DNA from: a virus
Virus record (IMG/VR): IMGVR_UViG_3300031972_003132
Coordinates: 1-25,096 of that record
DNA length: 25,096 nt
Reading direction: 5' to 3' (one strand)
Made by a program: the position numbers and the translations under genes. The notes beneath the pieces are model-generated. The model was not told the origin of the DNA and did no database searches. It was given only the letters and a program-made list of their open reading frames with translations. This document shows positions 7,806 to 21,270 of the stretch, in pieces; the stretch's first letter is position 1, and each line of letters starts with the position of its first letter.

Positions 7806-8204
7806 ATGACGCTTCGAGAAAGACTGCTGCTCATTGCCGAGACCTATTGTTCGCTTTCGGGAACATCGAAGGCGCGCGTCTCGACGGTCGTGCTGTCCGG
7901 CGGTCGCCGGCTGGCGATGATCGAGGCGGGCGGGGACATCGGCACGGAGCGCTATGAGCGCGCCATGCAGTGGTTTTCCGACAACTGGCCCGAAGGGGCC
8001 GACTGGCCGGAGGGCGTGCCGCGCCCCGGTCGTGACCTTTCCTGCGGCGGTGGAGCAGAGGCAGCTCGCGGGTCTCATAAGCCCGAGGTCGCCGGTTCGA
8101 GTCCGGCCCCCGCAACCAGCCACACCCTGAAGAGCGAACCGGGGCGGGAGGGCGTGCCATCGGGCGCCTTCCCGTTGCCAACCTGCCCGGAGGCTGCGGA
8201 ATGA
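7806..8204 (+). CDS. First right-operon gene, unknown (Cro position)
   Basis: 132 codons if read to the stop at 8204. The first about 75 residues look genuine: MTLRERLLLIAETYCSLSG, then KARVSTVVLSGGRRLAMIEAGGD and ERAMQWFSDNWPEGADWPEG. This resembles short conserved rhizobial phage proteins whose helical middle could be an HTH-like fold (from memory, not searched). The rest of the frame runs straight through the tRNA gene at 8043-8118, so the natural C-terminus has probably been lost or replaced. There is no SD; the ATG coincides with the predicted transcription start, so the message may be leaderless. By position it corresponds to cro, but that role is inferred only from place and size. Confidence 0.62.
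   Translation: MTLRERLLLIAETYCSLSGTSKARVSTVVLSGGRRLAMIEAGGDIGTERYERAMQWFSDNWPEGADWPEGVPRPGRDLSCGGGAEAARGSHKPEVAGSSPAPATSHTLKSEPGREGVPSGAFPLPTCPEAAE
8043..8118 (+). tRNA. tRNA with CAT anticodon (Met-type), one extra acceptor base
   Basis: A cloverleaf can be drawn: D arm GAGC-AGAGGCA-GCTC, anticodon stem CGGGT/GCCCG around loop CTCATAA (anticodon CAT), variable region AGGTC, T arm GCCGG-TTCGAGT-CCGGC, and an encoded 3' ACCA. The 3' acceptor strand is CCCCGCA, but the 5' strand is TGCGGCGG, one base too long, so one C must bulge. The initiator mark of three G-C pairs next to the anticodon loop is missing (a G-U closes the stem), so it looks like an elongator Met or, if modified, an Ile(CAT) tRNA. 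It overlaps the reading frame of the gene 7806-8204. Whether it is charged and functional is open. Confidence 0.82.
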
Positions 8205-9688: not shown

Positions 9689-10032
9689 TGCGCTTCCTGC
9701 AAACGAACGCCTTCTTCGTTCTCGTCATCCTCGCGCTGCTGCTCGCGGGCATCGTGCTTCTCCTCCTGCCCGGCCGGGCAGCGGCGCATGATGCGCCCAC
9801 CGGCTGGTCCTATCCCTATTCCTGCTGCACCAACCACGATTGCAGGATGATTGCCTCCGCCGCGGTCGGCGAGGGGCCGAAGGGATACACGATCCACGCC
9901 ACGGGCGAGCTTGTGCCCTATCAGGACACCCGCGTGCGGCATTCGCCCGATGGCGATTTCCACTGGTGCAGCGTCGCCGGCAAGGACGATACGCGCACGA
10001 TCTGCCTCTTCGTGCCGCCGAGGGCGTTCTGA
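9688..10032 (+). CDS. Exported Cys-rich hypothetical protein
   Basis: 114 residues. A signal peptide or signal anchor occupies residues 8-33 (AFFVLVILALLLAGIVLLLL followed by PGRAAAHDA; AAA-H is a possible cleavage site). The mature part has cysteines in YSCCTNHDC, HWC and TIC, with GELVPYQDTRVRHSPDGDFH between; similar short exported proteins recur in rhizobial phages and chromosomes (from memory). The even number of cysteines suggests disulfides in the periplasm. TGATG overlaps lie at both ends. The longer upstream frame is a shadow of gcrA. Confidence 0.78.
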   Translation: MRFLQTNAFFVLVILALLLAGIVLLLLPGRAAAHDAPTGWSYPYSCCTNHDCRMIASAAVGEGPKGYTIHATGELVPYQDTRVRHSPDGDFHWCSVAGKDDTRTICLFVPPRAF

Positions 10033-12752
10033 TGAGCGTTCACGATCGAGACATTCATCGGGCTTACGAACAGTTTCTCGAAGCCAAGGTGCCGGCCGCA
10101 CCCCGGCTCGGCTTCGAGGTCGCGGCCGAGGCGGTCAATCCGCTGTTGAAGCCGATGACGCGCGCGATCGTGCCCTGGGGCTGCCGTGGCGGGCGGCGCG
10201 CCTATTTCCTGCGCTTCGGCCTGCACAAGACCTCGACGCAGCTGGAGACCGGTCGGCAGGTGCTGATGAAGGAAGGCGGGCACGGCCTGATCGTCTGCCC
10301 GCTCGGCGTCAAGCAGGAATTCTTCCGCGAGGTCGCGCTCTATCACCCGGACCTGCGGCTGAAGTTCATCCGCACCACGGCGGAGATGGAAGAAAAGAAC
10401 ACGCCCGGCACGGGCGAGAAGCTCATCCACATCACGAACTACGAGAGCGTGCGCGAGGGCAAGATCGATTGTTCGCTGCTCACCTTCGTCTCGCTCGACG
10501 AGGCGGCGGCGCTGCGCGGGTTCGGCGGCACCAAGACCTTCCGCACCTTCATGGCCAAGCTTGCCGGCGACGACCGGGAAGCGGGTGTGAAGACGGCGGG
10601 CGTGCCCTATCGCTTCGTCGCGACCGCGATCCCGGATCCGAATGAATATATCGAGTTGCTCGCCTATGCGGCATTCCTCGGCGTGATGGATGTCGGCGAG
10701 GCGAAGACCCGCTTTTTCAAGCGCGACAGCGAGAAGGCCGACCGGCTGACGCTGCATGCCCACAAGGAAGAGGAATTCTGGCTGTGGGTCGCCTCCTGGG
10801 CGCTCTTCGTGCAGAAGCCGTCCGACCTCGGCTTTTCCGACGAGGGCTATGAACTTCCGCCGCGCGACATCCGCTGGCACGAAATCCCCTCCAACCATGC
10901 CGCCGCCGGCGCCGAGCGCAGCGGGCAGGGCCGGCTCTTCGCCGATGCCGCCCATGGTGTCGTCGACGCGGCGCGGGAGAAGAAGCGATCGCTCGATGCC
11001 CGCGTCGCCAGGATGATGGAAATCCGCGCCGAGGACCCGGATGCGCACCGCATCATCTGGCACGATCTCGAAGACGAGCGCCGGGCGATCGAGGCGGCGA
11101 TCCCGACCGTGCAATCGGTCTGGGGCAGCCAGGATCTCGGCGAGCGCGAGGAGCGCGTCATCGCCTTTTCCAACGGAGACTTCGCCGAGCTTGCCACCAA
11201 GCCGGTACTCAACGGCTCCGGCTGCAATTTTCAGTACCATTGCCGACACAACATCTATCTCGGCATCGGCTTCAAGTTCCACGACTTCTTCCAGTCGCTC
11301 TTCCGCACCCAGCGATTTGGCCAGACCGAGCAGGTGCGCGCCGACCTCATCTATACCGAGGCGGAGCGCAAGACGCGGGCCGAGCTGGAGCGCAAGTGGC
11401 GCGAATTCGAGGTGCAGGCCGAGAAGATGGCGGCGATCATCCGCCGCTTCGGCCTGGCGTCGAGCGCGATCGACGGGGCCTTTGGCCGACAGATGGGCGT
11501 CAAGCGGCGGGAGGTGACCGGTGGCGTCTCGGACAAGGGCGACTGGCTTTACAAGCTGGTGCACAATGACACGATCCTGGAAACCTCGGCGATGGAGGCC
11601 GACAGCGTCGACCTGATCGTCACCTCCATCCCCTTTTCGACGCAATACGAATACACGCCGTCCTATCACGACCTCGGCCACACCGACGACGACGCGCATT
11701 TCTGGTCGCAGATGGATTTCCTGACGGGCGAGTTGCTGCGCGTGCTGAAGCCCGGGCGGCGCGCCGTCATCCATGTCAAGGACCGGATCGTGCCCGGTGG
11801 CATCACCGGCTACGGCTTCCAGACCGTCTCGCCCTTTTCCGACGATTGCGTGGCGCATTTCCGCCGGCACGGCTTCGCCTTCCTGTCCCGCGTGACCATC
11901 GGTACGGACGTGGTGCGCGAGAACAACCAGACCTATCGGCTCGGCTGGTCCGAACAGTGCAAGGATGGGACCCGCATGGGCCACGGAATGCCGGAATACC
12001 TGCTGGAATTCCGAAAACCGCAGACCGACCGCTCGCGCGGCTATGCGGACGTGCCCGTGGTGAAGGCGAAACCCGATTTCGTCAGCGTGATCGACGGGCG
12101 GCCGGTGGATGCCGGCGACGACGATTACGATGCCAAGCGCATCGTCGCGGTGCCTGGCACCGGCTATTCGCGCGGGCGCTGGCAGCTCGATGCGCATGGC
12201 CAGTGGCGCTCCTCCGGCGACCGGCCGCTTTTGCCCGATGAGCTTGCGCGGCTCGTGCGGCTCGACGCCAAGCAGATCTATCGCGGCTGGAAGGCCTTCT
12301 GCCTCTCCACCGTCTACGACCACGAAACGCATGTCGCCTTCTGCGAGGCGCTGGACGAAGCCGGCCGCCTGCCGCCGACCTTCATGATCGCGCCGCCCCA
12401 TTCCGACCATCCGGAGATCGTGACGGATGTGGCGCGCATGCGCACGCTCAACATGCTGCAGGCGAAGAAGGGACGGGAGATGCATCTCTGCCCGCTGCAG
12501 TTCGACATCGTCGAGCGGGCCGTGCGCGCCTACAGCAACCCCGGCGAACTGGTCTTCGATCCCTTCGGCGGCATCATGACGGTGCCCTATGTGGCGCTCG
12601 GTCTCGGCCGGCGCGCAATTGCCACCGAACTCAACCCCGATTATTTCCGCGACGGCTGCCACTATGCCGAGCTTGCCGCCGGCGGCGGCAAGGGGCCGTC
12701 GCTCTTCGACCTGATGGCGCTGGAAGCCGGACAGGCGGAGGCGGCGGAATGA
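10032..12752 (+). CDS. Fused SF2-helicase-like and N4/N6 DNA methyltransferase
   Basis: 906 residues. About 40-450 follows the SF2/SNF2 helicase layout, but key motifs are altered: motif I GLHKT (63-67), motif II DEAA (156-159), motif III TAIP (198-201), motif VI region RTQRFGQTEQVR (425-436). About 510-665 and 815-880 form a beta-class amino-methyltransferase, with the catalytic motif first (SIPF at 532-535, followed by YEYTPSYHDLGHTDD) and the SAM motif FDPFGG (842-847) near the C-terminus. Likely reaction: SAM-dependent transfer of methyl to exocyclic N of A or C. The ATPase half may be inactive or altered. No restriction enzyme is nearby, so self-protection from host restriction is the simplest role. 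The start overlaps the previous stop. Confidence 0.87.
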   Translation: MSVHDRDIHRAYEQFLEAKVPAAPRLGFEVAAEAVNPLLKPMTRAIVPWGCRGGRRAYFLRFGLHKTSTQLETGRQVLMKEGGHGLIVCPLGVKQEFFREVALYHPDLRLKFIRTTAEMEEKNTPGTGEKLIHITNYESVREGKIDCSLLTFVSLDEAAALRGFGGTKTFRTFMAKLAGDDREAGVKTAGVPYRFVATAIPDPNEYIELLAYAAFLGVMDVGEAKTRFFKRDSEKADRLTLHAHKEEEFWLWVASWALFVQKPSDLGFSDEGYELPPRDIRWHEIPSNHAAAGAERSGQGRLFADAAHGVVDAAREKKRSLDARVARMMEIRAEDPDAHRIIWHDLEDERRAIEAAIPTVQSVWGSQDLGEREERVIAFSNGDFAELATKPVLNGSGCNFQYHCRHNIYLGIGFKFHDFFQSLFRTQRFGQTEQVRADLIYTEAERKTRAELERKWREFEVQAEKMAAIIRRFGLASSAIDGAFGRQMGVKRREVTGGVSDKGDWLYKLVHNDTILETSAMEADSVDLIVTSIPFSTQYEYTPSYHDLGHTDDDAHFWSQMDFLTGELLRVLKPGRRAVIHVKDRIVPGGITGYGFQTVSPFSDDCVAHFRRHGFAFLSRVTIGTDVVRENNQTYRLGWSEQCKDGTRMGHGMPEYLLEFRKPQTDRSRGYADVPVVKAKPDFVSVIDGRPVDAGDDDYDAKRIVAVPGTGYSRGRWQLDAHGQWRSSGDRPLLPDELARLVRLDAKQIYRGWKAFCLSTVYDHETHVAFCEALDEAGRLPPTFMIAPPHSDHPEIVTDVARMRTLNMLQAKKGREMHLCPLQFDIVERAVRAYSNPGELVFDPFGGIMTVPYVALGLGRRAIATELNPDYFRDGCHYAELAAGGGKGPSLFDLMALEAGQAEAAE

Positions 12753-14108: not shown

Positions 14109-16244
14109 ATGCTGGTCGATACACTCTTTGCCGGCATGGGGCGCGATCCGATCGCGCGGGGCACGACGGCGCCGAAGCTGATCGTCGACAGTTTCGCCGG
14201 CGGCGGCGGGGCCTCGACGGGGATCGAGATGGCGCTCGGCCGCTCGCCCGATATCGCGATCAACCACAATCCGGCGGCGCTCGCCCTGCATGCCGCGAAC
14301 CATCCGGACACGCTGCATCTTTCGGAGAACATCTATCGCGTCGATCCGCTCGACTACATGCGCGGCCGGCATATCGGGCTCGCGCATTTCTCGCCGGACT
14401 GCAAGCACTTCTCCAAGGCCAAGGGCGGCAAGCCTGTGGAGCGCAACGTGCGGGACCTCGCTCATGTCATCCCCCACTGGGTGCGCCGCATCCGGCAGGG
14501 CGGCGGCGAGATCGACGTCATCACGATGGAGAATGTCGAGGAATTCAAGGACTGGGGGCCGCTGATCGAGACGGCGCGCGGCCTGATGCCGGATCCTGCC
14601 CGCAAGGGCGAGACCTTCAAGGCCTGGTGCAGGGAATTGAAGCGGCTCGGCGGACGGATCGAGTTTCGCGAGTTGCGGGCCTGCGACTATGGCGCGCCGA
14701 CGATCCGCAAGCGCTTCTTCGCCGTCATCCGATTCGACGGCAAGGCGATCGTCTGGCCGGAGCCGACGCATGGGGCGCCTGACGACCCTGATGTCATCGC
14801 CGGGCGGAAACTGCCCTGGGTCTGGGTGGCGGGCTGCATCGACTGGACGCTGCCTTGCCCCTCGATCTTCGACACGGCGGCGGCGATCTTCGCAAAGCAT
14901 GGCTTGCGCGCCGTGCGCCCGCTGGCGGACGCCACGATGGCGCGGGTGGCGCGGGGGATGAAGCGCTATGTGCTGGATGCCGAGCGGCCGTTCATCGTGC
15001 AGACCGGCTATGGCGAGCGGCCGGGACAGGCGCCGCGTACGATGGATGTCAACGCGCCGCTCGGCACGGCGGTGGCCGGCGGCATCAAGCATGCTGTGGT
15101 CACGCCGTCGGTCATCCGCTTCAACACGGGCGCGACGGGGCAGGACTGCCGGGAGCCGCTTTCGACGATAACCGCGAACGGCTTCATCAAGCGGCCGGGC
15201 GGTGCGGCGCCGCTCGGCGTCATCGCGCCGCACCTCGCGTCCTACTACAGCCATACGGACGGGCGGTCGGAGCGAACATCGCAGGTGACCGATCCGCTCG
15301 CCACGGTGACGACGGAAAACCGGCATGCGGTCATCGCGCCCGTCCTGTCGGCCGCGCAGCATGGCGGATCGGTTCGTTCTGTCGACGGGCCGCACCACAC
15401 GATCACGGCAAGCCCGAAGGACCAGAACGCCGTCATTATCCCGACCCTCGTCGGCTGCGGCGGACGGGCCGGGCAAAGCCGCCCGCGCGGCGTCGACGAG
15501 CCGATGGCAACGCACACGACGAAGGCGGATGTCTGCGTCGCCGCGGCCTTCGTCGCGCAGCACAACAATGACATCAGGCGCGAGGGCGGGGTCAATCCGG
15601 GGCGGCGGGCGGACGAGCCGCTGTCGACCGTCACGCAATCCGGCAGCCACCAAAACGTTGTGGCCGCGCATATGATGAGCATGAAGGGCAGCGACCGGCG
15701 CGGCTCGCCAGCCGATGCACCGCACCCGACCATTCTCGCCGGCGGCGGACATTCCACGCTCGTCGCACCCTACTTGCAGGCCTATTACGGGACCGGCGAC
15801 GGCGGCGAGGAAGACCAGCCGGCGCGTACCATCACGACGAAGGACCGGCACGGCCATGTCGAGGCGGCACTCTCCGCGCCGCCCTTCACCGACGACCAGG
15901 CGGACCGGGCGCGCGACGTCGCGGCCTTCCTGCGGGCGCACGGCTTCTGGGACGAGCGCGAATTCGTGACGCTCGCGATCGGCGGCGACATCTTCGTCAT
16001 CGTCGATATCGGCATGCGCATGCTGACGCCGCGCGAACTCTACAACGCGCAAGGCTTTCCGCCCGACTATGTGATCGACGGCGGCTGGCACCAGCCGGAA
16101 GACGGGAGCGATCCGGTCTGGGTCGACTTTCCGAAGAGCGTGCAGGTCTCCTGCGTCGGCAACAGCGTCTCGCCGCCCGTGATGGCGGCGCTGGTCGCGG
16201 CGAACTGCCCGGATCTGGCGCTGATGGCGGAGGCGGCGGAATGA
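14109..16244 (+). CDS. C5-cytosine DNA methyltransferase with repeat-built insert
   Basis: 711 residues; typical C5 enzymes have 350-450. Motif I (DSFAGGGGASTGIEMALG, residues 27-44), motif IV with the catalytic Cys as SPDCKHFSKAKGG (95-107; Cys98, not the usual PCQ), motif VI MENVEEF (140-146), motif VIII ACDYGAPTIRKRFF (191-204), motif IX LTPRELYNAQGFPPDY (639-654) and motif X GNSVSPPV (684-691) are all present. About 310-590 is a target-recognition region built from eight degenerate repeats, each with P-x-x-T-x-T (Pro at 317, 350, 396, 428, 465, 504, 538, 571) followed by an AVIAP-like strand. It methylates cytosine C5 at an unknown site, probably for restriction evasion; no cognate endonuclease is present. 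Confidence 0.93.
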   Translation: MLVDTLFAGMGRDPIARGTTAPKLIVDSFAGGGGASTGIEMALGRSPDIAINHNPAALALHAANHPDTLHLSENIYRVDPLDYMRGRHIGLAHFSPDCKHFSKAKGGKPVERNVRDLAHVIPHWVRRIRQGGGEIDVITMENVEEFKDWGPLIETARGLMPDPARKGETFKAWCRELKRLGGRIEFRELRACDYGAPTIRKRFFAVIRFDGKAIVWPEPTHGAPDDPDVIAGRKLPWVWVAGCIDWTLPCPSIFDTAAAIFAKHGLRAVRPLADATMARVARGMKRYVLDAERPFIVQTGYGERPGQAPRTMDVNAPLGTAVAGGIKHAVVTPSVIRFNTGATGQDCREPLSTITANGFIKRPGGAAPLGVIAPHLASYYSHTDGRSERTSQVTDPLATVTTENRHAVIAPVLSAAQHGGSVRSVDGPHHTITASPKDQNAVIIPTLVGCGGRAGQSRPRGVDEPMATHTTKADVCVAAAFVAQHNNDIRREGGVNPGRRADEPLSTVTQSGSHQNVVAAHMMSMKGSDRRGSPADAPHPTILAGGGHSTLVAPYLQAYYGTGDGGEEDQPARTITTKDRHGHVEAALSAPPFTDDQADRARDVAAFLRAHGFWDEREFVTLAIGGDIFVIVDIGMRMLTPRELYNAQGFPPDYVIDGGWHQPEDGSDPVWVDFPKSVQVSCVGNSVSPPVMAALVAANCPDLALMAEAAE

Positions 16245-16989: not shown

Positions 16990-18351
16990 ATGAGCAGCAT
17001 CCTCGACGAATTCATCGCCGACGCGCGGGCGGTCGACCTGGAGACGGTCGCAGGCCTTTGCGGCGTCGCGGTCAAGGGCAGGGCCGACGAGAAGAAGGGG
17101 CCGTGCCCGCGCTGCGGCGGCAAGGACCGCTTCTCCATCAACTTCCGCAAGGGCGTGTGGAACTGCGGGCATCTGGGCGGCGCCGGCGGTGACGGGCTGG
17201 CGCTCGTTGCCCATTGTCATGATTTCGACCTGAAGCGCCGCGCCGGGCTGATGGAGGCCTGCGCCGTCATCCTAGGCCGGCCGGTGCCCGAGGGCGGCGA
17301 ACGGGAAAGCGAGGACGAACGGACGGCGCGGGCGGCAAGGCTGGCGGCGATCGCGGCCGAGCGGAGCGCGGAACGCGCCAGCCGCGCGGCCGAGGCCGAG
17401 GCCTGGCGGCTGAAGGCGATCGAGAAAGGACGCGCCTTCTGGTTTCGCGCGGTGGATGCGCGCGTCTCCGATGTTGCCGACTATCTCCGGCTGCGCACCG
17501 GCTTTGCCATGCCCGATGGCGTCTTCGAGAACCTGCGGCTGTCGCCCCGGCACGGCTACTGGCACGGCGAGGACGAGCGCGGCCACCGGCTGGAACTGCA
17601 CAACGGCCCGGCGATGATCGCGCCCTTCGTCACGCCTGATGGAAAGGTCGTCGGCTGCCACGAGACGTGGCTCGATCTCTCGGCAGAGCCTAAATATCGG
17701 CCTGCTCTTTTTGCGCTCACGGCCGAGGGCCTCCGCCAAAAATCCTTGCGCGCCTGCGGCGGCGCGGGGGAGCGGCCAAACGTGGCCGACGGCCGCTTGG
17801 CCTTGCCGCCTTCGGCGGATGTCGAGGCCGGCATCTATGAGCGCCTGCCGACCAAAAAAATGCAGGGCGCCGTCAAGGGCGCGATGATCCCGCTGCTGGG
17901 CGATCTTGCGGCCCTGCGCTGGATGGGCGGCGAGGGGATCGAGAACGTGCTTGCCGTCGCCGGCGCCGAGGGGTTTCGCGCCGACACCTTCTATTTTGCC
18001 GCCGGCAGCCTCGGCAACCTGGCGGGGCCGGCGGATGCGTCGTCGGGCATTGCGCACCCGACGATCAGGAAAGCTGACAAGAACGGCGTGCTGCGGCCGG
18101 TGCGCGTGCAGGGCTGCGTGCCGAAACCGGGCAGCGAGGCGGATTGCGTCGCGATCGCGGATCACGTCAGCGAGATCGTGCTCGTCTGCGACGGCGACAG
18201 CGAGCCGGTCATGACGGCCGCGGCGGTCGCCCGGACGATCGCGCGCCATCGCCGCGACGGCCGCGTCATAGCCGACTGGTGGCCACCACGGGGCCGGGAC
18301 TGGGCAGGGGCAATCCTTGCCGGATTGACGATCATGGGCAGGGCAGCGTGA
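16990..18351 (+). CDS. DNA primase (zinc finger + TOPRIM)
   Basis: 453 residues. A zinc-binding domain near the N-terminus has C39-x2-C42 in GPCPRCGGKDRFSINFRKG, then WNC(59)GH(61), with the fourth ligand not in the usual CxxC form. A long Arg/Ala/Glu helix spans about 105-150. A TOPRIM-type domain lies near the C-terminus: EIVLVCDGDSEP (395-406) and DWWPPRGRDW. The product should make RNA primers at the phage origin. About 45 residues around 239-285 look inserted and are encoded by palindrome-rich DNA. It is coupled to the helicase gene by GTGA. Together the two split the activities of P4 alpha-type proteins. Confidence 0.88.
   Translation: MSSILDEFIADARAVDLETVAGLCGVAVKGRADEKKGPCPRCGGKDRFSINFRKGVWNCGHLGGAGGDGLALVAHCHDFDLKRRAGLMEACAVILGRPVPEGGERESEDERTARAARLAAIAAERSAERASRAAEAEAWRLKAIEKGRAFWFRAVDARVSDVADYLRLRTGFAMPDGVFENLRLSPRHGYWHGEDERGHRLELHNGPAMIAPFVTPDGKVVGCHETWLDLSAEPKYRPALFALTAEGLRQKSLRACGGAGERPNVADGRLALPPSADVEAGIYERLPTKKMQGAVKGAMIPLLGDLAALRWMGGEGIENVLAVAGAEGFRADTFYFAAGSLGNLAGPADASSGIAHPTIRKADKNGVLRPVRVQGCVPKPGSEADCVAIADHVSEIVLVCDGDSEPVMTAAAVARTIARHRRDGRVIADWWPPRGRDWAGAILAGLTIMGRAA
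17700..17845. repeat. Palindrome-rich in-frame insertion in the primase gene
   Basis: Between the codons for KYRPALF and LPTKKMQG lies a stretch unlike the rest of the gene: CAAAAATCC and CTCTTTTT tracts and multiple hairpins (GGCCA-AACG-TGGCC; GGCCAA far-paired with TTGGCC; CCGCC-TTC-GGCGG). It encodes Ala/Arg/Gly/Pro-rich residues. It resembles mobile palindromic elements that insert in frame in alphaproteobacterial genes. The borders are approximate. Confidence 0.5.
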
Positions 18352-20174
18352 CAGACAGGAAAACGAAACCGAACACGCTGCCGCCGGAGTTGATGGAGAT
18401 CCTTGCCCATGCCGGTGTGGACGCGGCAGGCGATTTCCCCGCAACCCCTTCTGACGATCGCGAGACGCCTGAAACTGTCGACGACGGCGAGCCGGGGGCG
18501 GCGCCCGACCGCGACGGCAAGGTCGACATGGATGTCGTTTCGCATTGCGCGGGCCTCGACCATTCCGACACGGACAATGCGCAGCGGCTGAAACTGCATT
18601 TCGGCGAGGACCTGCTCGTCGTGACGCAGGAGAAGGCCAAGGAGGCGCTCTTTGCCGTCTGGACGGGCACGCACTGGGATGTGGCGAATGGCGGGCCGAA
18701 GGCGCTCGCGATCGCGCAGAAGCTTGGCGGGCGGATCGCGCTGGAGACGACCTTCATCAAGCCGACGGAGCGCGAGCAGCGGGTGATCGATGCCGGCCGC
18801 GCGGCGCTGAAGGTCGACGAGGCCGACCGCTCGCCGCTCGACCGGGCTCTTGCGGCGCGCGCCGAAAAGGCGATCGAGGCGCATGGCAAGCGGGTGAAGC
18901 GCCGCATGGACCATGCGGTCTCATCAAAGAACATCGCCCGAATGCGCGCGGCACTGACCTGTATCGCGCCGCATATCATGCGCCCGCCCGACGACTTCAA
19001 CGCCGATCGCATGATGCTCGCCACCCGCAACGCGACGCTGAAATTCCGTCAGAAGATCGAGACCAGGGCGAACCCGGCCTTCGCCTCGGCCGAGAAGACA
19101 CCCGACGTGCCGGAGACGATCGATGTCTGCACCGACACGCGCCTCGAGGTCGTGAAGGGGCATCGGCGCGGCGATCTCATCACCCATGTCGTGCCCGTCG
19201 ATTTCGACCCGAAGGCGCTCTGCCCGCGCTGGCTCGCCTTTTTCCGCAAGATGCAGCCGGACCCGACGGTGCGCCGGCTGATCCAGATATCGTCGGGCCT
19301 CGGCCTTGTCGGCATCACGGTGCAGAAACTGTTCTTCCACTATGGCGACGGGGCAAACGGCAAGTCGGTCTACATGGAAACGCTCTGCCGGATGCTCGGC
19401 GAGACCTCCGTCACGCTGCCCTCGACCTCGCTGATCGGCGAAAGCGGGTCGTCCGGCAGCGCCAGCCCCGATCTTGCCCGACTGCTCGGCCGGCGACTGC
19501 TGCGCGTCAAGGAGCTGCCGGAGGGCGAGGACCTGAAGGAGGCGCTGGTCAAGGAACTGACGGGCGGCGAGACGATCACCGCGCGCGACCTCTTTGCCGG
19601 CTACATGGACTTCCAGGCGCTCTTCGTCGCCATGATGAGCGGCAACGGCTATCCGAAGATCACCGGCACCGACAACGGAATCTGGCGGCGCATGGCCGTC
19701 GTGCACTGGCCGGTGAAGATCCCGGAAGACGAGCAGCGCGAATTCGAGGAAATGCTCGCCTATTTCGAGCCGGAATATGCCGGCATTCTCAACTGGCTGA
19801 TCGAGGGCGTTCACATCTTCCTGAAGGAAGGGCTGGTGATCCCCGACGCGGTGCGCAAGGCCACCCAGGACTATCGCGACGACATGGACCGCACGGCGGC
19901 CTTCGTGGCCCGCTGCATCATCCGCGACGACGCCGCACCGCAGCTCCAGGCGCGCGACCTCTACCATGCCTATTGCGACTTCACGATCGACGAGGGCGGC
20001 AAGCCGATGAACGTCACGGCCTTCGGCCGCGCGATGGCGAAGAAATTCCACAAGGATACCAGCGGCCGCATCGTCTATTACGCCGGCATCAGGCTGACCA
20101 ACGTGCCGGACCGCACGCCATCGCCGCCGCAAGGCCGCTTCGACGACAGTCCGTTCCCGGAGGATTTCCGGTGA
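18348..20174 (+). CDS. P4/D5-type SF3 replicative helicase
   Basis: 608 residues from a GTG that overlaps the primase stop (GTGA). The first about 60 residues are polar and probably disordered. A D5_N-like region follows (about 185-320). The SF3 ATPase has Walker A GDGANGKS (333-340), LLGRRLLRVKELPEGEDLKE as the Walker B region, then KELTGGETITARDLF, the C motif region FVAMMSGNGYPKITGTDNGI and RRMAVVHWP. A winged-helix-like C-terminal part (about 510-595) would bind DNA. Known relatives unwind phage or plasmid origins. The iteron array directly downstream (20239-20474) is its likely target. Confidence 0.93.
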   Translation: MTDRKTKPNTLPPELMEILAHAGVDAAGDFPATPSDDRETPETVDDGEPGAAPDRDGKVDMDVVSHCAGLDHSDTDNAQRLKLHFGEDLLVVTQEKAKEALFAVWTGTHWDVANGGPKALAIAQKLGGRIALETTFIKPTEREQRVIDAGRAALKVDEADRSPLDRALAARAEKAIEAHGKRVKRRMDHAVSSKNIARMRAALTCIAPHIMRPPDDFNADRMMLATRNATLKFRQKIETRANPAFASAEKTPDVPETIDVCTDTRLEVVKGHRRGDLITHVVPVDFDPKALCPRWLAFFRKMQPDPTVRRLIQISSGLGLVGITVQKLFFHYGDGANGKSVYMETLCRMLGETSVTLPSTSLIGESGSSGSASPDLARLLGRRLLRVKELPEGEDLKEALVKELTGGETITARDLFAGYMDFQALFVAMMSGNGYPKITGTDNGIWRRMAVVHWPVKIPEDEQREFEEMLAYFEPEYAGILNWLIEGVHIFLKEGLVIPDAVRKATQDYRDDMDRTAAFVARCIIRDDAAPQLQARDLYHAYCDFTIDEGGKPMNVTAFGRAMAKKFHKDTSGRIVYYAGIRLTNVPDRTPSPPQGRFDDSPFPEDFR

Positions 20175-20365
20175 TGATCAGCGCTCCCCGCAACCCCTTT
20201 TCGCCGCGCCGCATGGGCCGCAAACTCCCGCGGGGGCGCGATAGTTGCGATAGTTCGGACGATAGTTTCGCGATAGTTCGGCGGGGGGAAGGGGGAGTAA
20301 AATCAAGGGCTTGCGATAGTTGCGATAGTTTTCGCGCGCTCAATAGAATGACGGCAAAGGGGTGA
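20174..20365 (+). CDS. Small ORF coding across iterons, doubtful
   Basis: 63 codons starting in a TGATG overlap with the helicase stop. The junction pattern favours translation, but the protein is basic and then mirrors the DNA repeats (DSCDSSDDSF, later CDSCDSF), which is what an ORF read through the iteron 8-mer would give. It may be translated without a selected function. Confidence 0.4.
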   Translation: MISAPRNPFSPRRMGRKLPRGRDSCDSSDDSFAIVRRGEGGVKSRACDSCDSFRALNRMTAKG

Positions 20366-20474
20366 GGGGAAAATTTCTTACGTCACCAGGGAAAAACTGT
20401 CGCAACTATCGAACCCATTGAAATCATTAAACTTAACTATCGCAAAACTCTCGAAAAACTATCGCAAACTATCG
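20239..20474. repeat. Iteron array, candidate replication origin
   Basis: CGATAGTT occurs six times on the plus strand (starts 20239, 20248, 20260, 20271, 20314, 20323) and its complement AACTATCG four times (starts 20404, 20435, 20457, 20467), plus one single-mismatch copy at 20446. Several extend to TTGCGATAGTT. The two groups face each other across a more AT-rich core (about 20331-20403). The location right after primase and SF3 helicase genes suggests the replication origin; P4 alpha binds comparable short iterons. Confidence 0.72.
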
Positions 20475-20490
20475 CAAGGAAGAAACGATC

Positions 20491-21270
20491 ATGAAAACCA
20501 TGACGATCCATGAACTTCTGCACTGGGCTTACTGCCAGGAGCTGGGAAAGGTCGGCGGCACGATGGCCGACACCAGCGGCGGATACAGCGCTGCCTGGGA
20601 GCGGACGCAGGAGATGGCGGCGCTCGGCACGCTGATCGACCGCAGCCCGAACGTCTTCGGCATCGTTCCGACCTCGGTCTATGAGGGCGAGCCGCATGTC
20701 GACGCGCTGACGGTCGGCCAGTTCGTGCGCAAGATTGAGACGGTGGCCGATCTTGCGCCGCCGTCCGGCTGGCAGCCCTTCCCGGAATTCGACGATCCGC
20801 ATGGTGTGATCGCCGAGGAGATCGGTACGGTCGTGTCGCAGTGGTGGCTGAAGGGCGAGCGAGCGAATTCCGCAGCGCTGCAGGCGCTGATCGTTCGCTC
20901 GGCCGTCATCGGGCGCGGGCCGGACTGGTCGGCGGAGGCGCCGAGGGTCGTGCCGCTGATGAAATGGGGCAATCCGATGTGGTTCATCGAGAAGAAGACG
21001 AAGGACGCGCTCGGCCGGGTCTATGCCTATGAGACGGATGGCTTCGACAAGCGCAAGCGGCGCCCACGGCCGGGCGCCTACCAAAAATATCGCCTGGTCG
21101 AGCCGATGCGCGGGGCGATCATGGCGCGGCTCGACTGGCATCTGTGGCAGATGGCGCTGGCGCGGCTCGCCAACGGGCTCGCAAATCACCTGATCGACCA
21201 TCGCATTGCGGGGTTCATCCCTTTTCGCGCGCCTTGGGAAGAAGCCGCCGAACTTCGCGCAAGTCTTTGA
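20491..21270 (+). CDS. Hypothetical phage protein
   Basis: 259 residues, ATG preceded by AAGGAAG at about 8 bases and directly downstream of the last iteron. The sequence is soluble with many Trp and Gly residues: MTIHELLHWAYCQELGKVGG, a middle WWLKGERANSAALQAL, then a basic patch DKRKRRPRPGAYQKYR and a helical end RLDWHLWQMALARLANGLAN. I do not recognise the family. Its place between the origin and the packaging genes suggests a replication-linked or late-control role, but there is no motif to support either. A terminator lies about 85 bases after its stop. Confidence 0.78.
   Translation: MKTMTIHELLHWAYCQELGKVGGTMADTSGGYSAAWERTQEMAALGTLIDRSPNVFGIVPTSVYEGEPHVDALTVGQFVRKIETVADLAPPSGWQPFPEFDDPHGVIAEEIGTVVSQWWLKGERANSAALQALIVRSAVIGRGPDWSAEAPRVVPLMKWGNPMWFIEKKTKDALGRVYAYETDGFDKRKRRPRPGAYQKYRLVEPMRGAIMARLDWHLWQMALARLANGLANHLIDHRIAGFIPFRAPWEEAAELRASL

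Follow-up and report, generated by a model that had tools for sequence, protein, structure and literature searches.

Origins read by related helicases

In the replication origins of SaPI/PICI satellites, an AT-rich stretch immediately 3′ of the helicase gene is flanked by two opposed sets of iterons (PMC6092414, PMC7581432). The C-terminal domain of SaPI Rep binds this iteron origin just downstream, and the C-terminal domain of the SCCmec helicase Cch2 binds repeats just downstream of its own gene (PMC7581432). In P4, short iterons are bound by the winged helix of an SF3 helicase that works with a TOPRIM-type primase (as summarised in PMC4234260). A comparable arrangement is annotated in Lactobacillus phage A2 (NC_004112), in which a rep_origin (32208–32717) overlaps the 3′ end of the primase–helicase gene. 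This rep_origin holds an opposed ACGGGAGG array of four and four sites. The A2 origin has been the subject of experimental work. P4 has its ori and crr at separate loci and a single alpha protein.

Here we analyse a 25,096-base stretch of viral DNA (the window), in which positions 20239–20474 are very probably the place where a temperate tailed phage of Rhizobiales starts its replication, an origin that would be opened by the D5/SF3 helicase of the phage itself. An origin bound and opened by this helicase is the reading best supported by sequence comparison, and its closest parallels are the SaPI/PICI origins and phage A2, not P4.

Replication genes and the predicted initiator

The genes and parts of genes that bear on initiation are as follows.

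16990–18351, + strand: primase gene (phrog_510, DNA primase), with a zinc ribbon (PF08273), DUF7146 and a weak Toprim_3 match
18348–20174, + strand: D5_N/SF3-type helicase gene (608 amino acids, phrog_1156), the proposed initiator
19896–20099, + strand: part encoding the predicted C-terminal winged helix, the proposed iteron reader (model pLDDT about 90; covariation)
20067–20069, + strand: codon of the wing arginine, R574 from the GTG start (R581 in P0001), which co-varies with the C of the GCGA iteron

The GTG start of the helicase overlaps the stop of the primase (GTGA). The TOPRIM-type primase and the SF3/D5 helicase come from two genes, rather than from a single fused primase–helicase of the P4 type; the earlier note had likewise assigned the functions of alpha to two proteins. 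The helicase matches D5_N (PF08706, E = 1.8e-12) and, in profile searches, 7ola and pox D5. Its AlphaFold model (mean pLDDT 86) has a winged helix at the C-terminal end; D5_N, an SF3 AAA+ core and this predicted winged helix together place the protein in the D5/SF3 initiator group. The best structural match in VIA-align is the SaPI5 primase–helicase, with 7ola at Z 27.7 (344 residues) and 7om0 at Z 27.1 (398 residues, extending to residue 578); next come poxvirus D5/E5 and the primase–helicase of African swine fever virus. When the C-terminal part was searched alone with a profile, the nearest relatives, all of them weak (E = 0.17 to 1.2), were the winged helices of RFX proteins, SaPI5 and P4 alpha. 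RFX proteins use the wing to read DNA, and such a mode would fit, by analogy, the wing code described below.

An opposed iteron array downstream of the helicase

The array begins 65 bp past the helicase stop, immediately 3′ of the initiator gene, and ends 16 bp upstream of the start codon of the next gene, which encodes a phrog_9306 protein. Its parts are as follows.

20239, 20248, 20260, 20271, 20314 and 20323, + strand: exact copies of CGATAGTT
20404, 20435, 20457 and 20467, − strand: exact copies of CGATAGTT
20239–20278, + strand: left outer iterons, exact CGATAGTT matches at 20239, 20248, 20260 and 20271
20301–20313, + strand: spacer element AATCAAGGGCTTG in the left spacer, adjoining the inner pair and matching the IHF-consensus-like WATCAANNNNTTR perfectly
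20314–20330, + strand: left inner iteron pair, exact matches at 20314 and 20323
20331–20394, no strand: AT-richer core separating the two halves, with the dyad centre at about 20362; the proposed melting site
20395–20411, − strand: right inner iteron pair, AACTGTCG (one mismatch) at 20395 and AACTATCG at 20404
20411–20423, − strand: degenerate mirror copy of the spacer element, TTTCAATGGGTTC (two mismatches)
20435–20474, − strand: right outer iterons at 20435, 20446 (AACTCTCG, one mismatch), 20457 and 20467

The earlier note had counted ten exact copies, six in one direction and then four in the other, around an AT-richer core, and this count is exact: all ten CGATAGTT copies in the window lie within 20239–20474. 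By chance, 0.28 copies would be expected per window, and none of 100 dinucleotide shuffles contained ten or more. In the 450 bp past the helicase stop, the 8-mer score peaked at 21.4; shuffles did not exceed 5.5, nor did control windows of the same record exceed 8.3. Two further reverse sites carry one mismatch each (AACTGTCG at 20395 and AACTCTCG at 20446); when they are counted, the array has 12 iterons, six forward and then six reverse. The two sides mirror each other as 4+2 | 2+4, each with an inner pair and an outer quartet. Successive iterons are spaced by 9, 12, 11, 43 and 9 bp on the left and by 9, 31, 11, 11 and 10 bp on the right, which puts the left sites 36, 46, 88, 100, 112 and 120 bp, and the right sites 36, 44, 76, 86, 98 and 108 bp, from the dyad.

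The core between the halves spans 62–64 bp and is 48% AT, compared with 34% for the window, so that opposed sets of six sites flank an AT-richer stretch, as in a PICI-type origin. G-rich, purine-rich runs occupy the + strand of the left spacer (20279–20300) and of the core (20350–20373) and are kept in several close relatives.

We take WATCAANNNNTTR to be the IHF consensus. The spacer element lies 56–60 bp from the dyad in the clade of the window and is mirrored with one mismatch in several relatives, in which TTTCAATGGGTTG and similar sequences occur at the mirrored spacer position. Perfect WATCAANNNNTTR matches number 12 in 37 origins of the discovery set described below (60-fold over the rest of those loci) and 9 in about 37 hold-out loci (14-fold enrichment). 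The TTR part of the match overlaps the TTG flank of the iteron itself; because this TTG belongs to the iteron flank, the true excess lies in WATCAA. A candidate IHF bend at the spacer element would join the quartet to the pair.

Comparison with satellite, phage and SCCmec origins

As in SaPI/PICI origins, two iteron sets flank an AT-rich stretch directly 3′ of an initiator helicase, with a primase upstream (separate or fused), and the C-terminal domain of a D5/SF3-type helicase is predicted here, from sequence, to read the iterons. The SaPI5 primase–helicase (7ola/7om0) is also the best structural match to the phage helicase. Unlike a SaPI/PICI satellite, which lacks structural and packaging genes of its own and depends on a helper, the phage encodes its own TerL (phrog_15), TerS (phrog_57) and neck protein (phrog_27), as a tailed phage does. 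A further difference lies in the 4+2 | 2+4 layout and the spacer element, which we describe here. Phage A2 shares the opposed array and has a related primase–helicase (28.7% identity), whereas its primase and helicase are fused, its iteron sequence is different and its host is a Firmicute. SCCmec likewise has a D5-family self-loading helicase, Cch2, with repeats just downstream (PMC7581432), but its putative origin has three 5-nt direct repeats, another primase type and no opposed 6+6 array.

P4 alpha (origin-binding domain 1KA8) resembles the proteins here in its SF3 helicase, TOPRIM-type primase and winged-helix iteron binding (predicted for the phage). The earlier note had taken P4 as the parallel and read the locus as ori and crr fused in one place. 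That framing gives way to the published SaPI/PICI layout (PMC6092414, PMC7581432): SaPI5 is the top structural match, the A2 rep_origin is alike, and the P4 alpha origin-binding domain is a weak sequence relative of the phage C-terminal domain (E = 1.2). A second, crr-like array was absent from the window, and five records with the same iteron (31–56 kb, maybe fragments) held one cluster each. P4 is a more distant parallel that works alike, and the locus is probably not a P4-type ori/crr pair.

A conserved layout with changing iterons

We compared about 80 related phages. The discovery set comprised 55 rhizobial prophage or phage loci found with the helicase (39 of them non-redundant; locus numbers carry an L), and the hold-out set 45 further loci from a second viral scan. 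In most of the 55 loci the strongest local repeat lies directly after the helicase gene, and an opposed array lies downstream of the helicase in nearly all of them. The iteron itself takes at least eight different sequences, differing between phages as GCGATAGTT, GGATAGTT, TGACAGTT, TGACCAGTT and TGCACCAGTT, with GCGACAGTT, GCGAGGGTT, TGGAGGGTT and GGCGGGGAT also present among the 55 loci. Across the 39 non-redundant loci, 435 of 472 sites point as expected, toward the core; most cores measure 59–75 bp, and nearly all have a higher AT content than their locus. Six is the commonest number of sites in the left half (18/37) as well as in the right (19/37), with counts that depend on the score cut-off. 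Sequence comparison thus shows that the layout is kept while the iteron sequence changes.

An array was present in 42 of the 45 hold-out loci. No clear array stood at the expected place in L018, L019 and L051 of the discovery set or in L116, L131 and L137 of the hold-out set, and inspection of phage R4C revealed no clear array. Beyond these sets, an array of twelve sites occurs in Aurantimonas phage AmM-1, and a weaker array in Paracoccus phage Pthi1. Given the arrays of A2, AmM-1 and Pthi1, a statement that no other known bacterial replicon is so organized fails for tailed phages.

In the TGCGAGGGTT clade (L037, L039, L123, L129, L130 and L135), single iterons are reversed, mirror-symmetrically in both halves (<>>><>><<><<< and similar patterns), as if this were a fixed part of the layout. 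In phage RcapNL (L062, 4336–4656), a putative opposed array has the helicase gene on one side and the annotated cohesive end on the other, a position in which origin and genome end would be neighbours.

The neighbours of the array also bear on whether the repeats are instead operators, through which the helicase or another phage protein would switch the downstream operon from phrog_9306 to the packaging genes. This is unlikely. The short 16-bp distance to phrog_9306 would suit an operator, as would a promoter-like match (TTGCGA-18-TAGAAT, 20320–20349) that lies in the core and overlaps an inner iteron; in L031 and phage RR1-A, moreover, other genes separate the array from the helicase and the array stays beside phrog_9306. 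However, in L032 and L052 it is the helicase that the array adjoins, with phrog_9306 about 0.8 kb further on, and in L036, L040 and L046 the array is present but phrog_9306 is missing from that place. The array is therefore not dependent on one neighbour gene. Its length of more than 230 bp with dyad symmetry also exceeds the needs of a repressor, and the AlphaFold model of the phrog_9306 protein (pLDDT 87) had no PDB match above Z 4.1 and none to a DNA-binding fold. An origin array may have a second, regulatory role.

Covariation of the iteron with the helicase wing

An arginine in the helicase wing, four residues before an invariant wing tyrosine (located by alignment column), goes with a C in the repeat (the second letter of GCGA), and absence of the arginine goes with TGGA or TGAC. 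The arginine is present in 19 of 20 loci with this C and in 1 of 19 without it, and the rule fits 37 of the 39 discovery loci. Among 2,489 column–residue tests across helicase, primase and phrog_9306, the wing arginine and alanine 542 ranked as the top two for this base. Applied to the hold-out set as fixed beforehand, the rule was right in 41 of the 42 loci with an array (24 with C and arginine, 17 with neither); the exception, L115, has a doubtful array model. On a tree built from helicase cores, with the C-terminal domain left out, there were 11 independent switches of the iteron letter; the arginine changed in the same way in 10 of these switches and in the opposite way in none (sign test, p about 0.002).

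In a scan of 20-residue windows corrected for overall helicase distance, the peak fell on helicase residues 578–597 of P0001 (partial r 0.47), with the best values elsewhere being 0.19 in the primase and 0.23 in phrog_9306; in the AlphaFold model, the co-varying residues sit in the wing, between the last strands of the winged helix. Ten close relatives divide into CGATAGTT and GGA(T/G)AGTT groups. Only five of 392 variable helicase columns separate these groups, four of them within eight wing residues; outside the helicase, one primase column and one at the very end of phrog_9306 do so. L007 and L014 have helicase cores that are 94% identical, yet differ in their wings and belong to different iteron groups. 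For iteron letters nearer the opposite end, the best association is with the turn that precedes the recognition helix (T553, G557 and G558); this signal follows one clade and is common to other columns too.

The primase and the phrog_9306 protein were rejected as iteron readers, being weaker in the 20-residue scan and in most base-by-base scans, but single columns of either reach 0.7–0.9 in pairwise or clade-driven tests, and the scans alone are not decisive. Single-column pairwise correlation over close relatives is too noisy to rank residues, with some other columns scoring equally high, and a high value near residue 85 of P0001 in a 12-residue scan was taken as noise. Because the C-terminal codons are so near the iterons, the covariation could arise if a single block recombined. 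Neither the helicase residues nearer the array than the wing nor the phrog_9306 columns near its start separate the ten loci, which speaks against block recombination, although the caveat remains. From the strong covariation and the hold-out fit we infer that the C-terminal winged helix of the helicase is the part that reads the iterons.

The same covariation weighs against a packaging (cos/pac) site bound by the terminase small subunit. The terminase genes do lie 1.7 kb downstream, and the cohesive end of RcapNL falls within about 300 bp of its helicase gene. However, relatives with the same iteron (L007, L008 and L013) have unrelated terminases (TerL about 26% identical to that of the window), relatives with near terminases (L011, L014, L020 and L049) carry other iterons, and iteron identity tracks the helicase wing. 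Since the iteron does not follow the terminase, we reject a packaging site as highly improbable. Clustered iterons can also serve as centromeres, but a partition site of a plasmid-like prophage has hardly any likelihood here: a ParA-like gene was not found among the proteins covered by a partial scan, the co-variation is with a replicative helicase, and several relatives are chromosomal prophages.

The earlier note's reading of a probable origin, with the helicase C-terminus as its predicted recogniser, is supported at the level of sequence by the far-above-chance array, the conserved layout and the co-change of iteron and wing. These comparisons suggest a PICI-type origin carried by tailed temperate phages, whose recognition code is readable.

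Proposed mechanism of initiation

We infer a scheme that comprises iteron binding itself, strand opening, loading of two hexamers, IHF binding and bidirectional replication. The D5/SF3 helicase would be the initiator, with its C-terminal winged helix binding each 8–9 bp iteron and the wing arginine reading the GC end. The opposed halves (4+2 | 2+4) would load two oppositely directed helicase assemblies, head to head on either side of the core; the AT-richer core would be the place of strand opening, and each assembly would close on one strand. The separate TOPRIM primase would then prime both forks. An IHF-consensus spacer element would bend the DNA so that the outer four sites meet the inner two.

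A more specific version, which we put forward tentatively and hold to be rather less probable than its opposite, is that each half-origin is a counted platform: six iterons, folded by a host bending protein at the spacer element, one per subunit of the helicase hexamer, with 6 | 6 encoding two opposed hexamers. If so, specificity would evolve through a simple wing-residue code. The at least 11 independent switches of origin sequence amount to a natural experiment that could pinpoint the DNA-reading residues of the helicase, and the system would open origin recognition and loading by self-loading D5/SF3 helicases, to which the poxvirus enzyme belongs, to direct tests in a harmless phage.

Genome context

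Downstream of the array, the gene order is phrog_9306, neck protein, small terminase and large terminase. Many relatives lie in records of 40–58 kb and some in rhizobial genomes, such as the prophage of Rhizobium sp. Root1203 (L048). The packaging and neck genes, together with these large records and rhizobial genomes, indicate a temperate tailed phage and not a satellite. A PICI-type origin as a family trait of Rhizobiales tailed temperate phages would bear on the origins of satellite replicons.

Other genes in the window were also recorded. The phrog_9306 protein (20491–21270) is encoded beside the array in about 50 relatives, at 25–52% identity. A 930-amino-acid protein (9960–12752) combines a helicase-like part (phrog_16) with an N6/N4 DNA methyltransferase domain (PF01555), and a 711-amino-acid C5-cytosine DNA methyltransferase (14109–16244; PF00145, phrog_116) has a long insert between its matched halves. 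A predicted tRNA-Met(CAT) gene (8043–8118) lies near an S24-type repressor gene.
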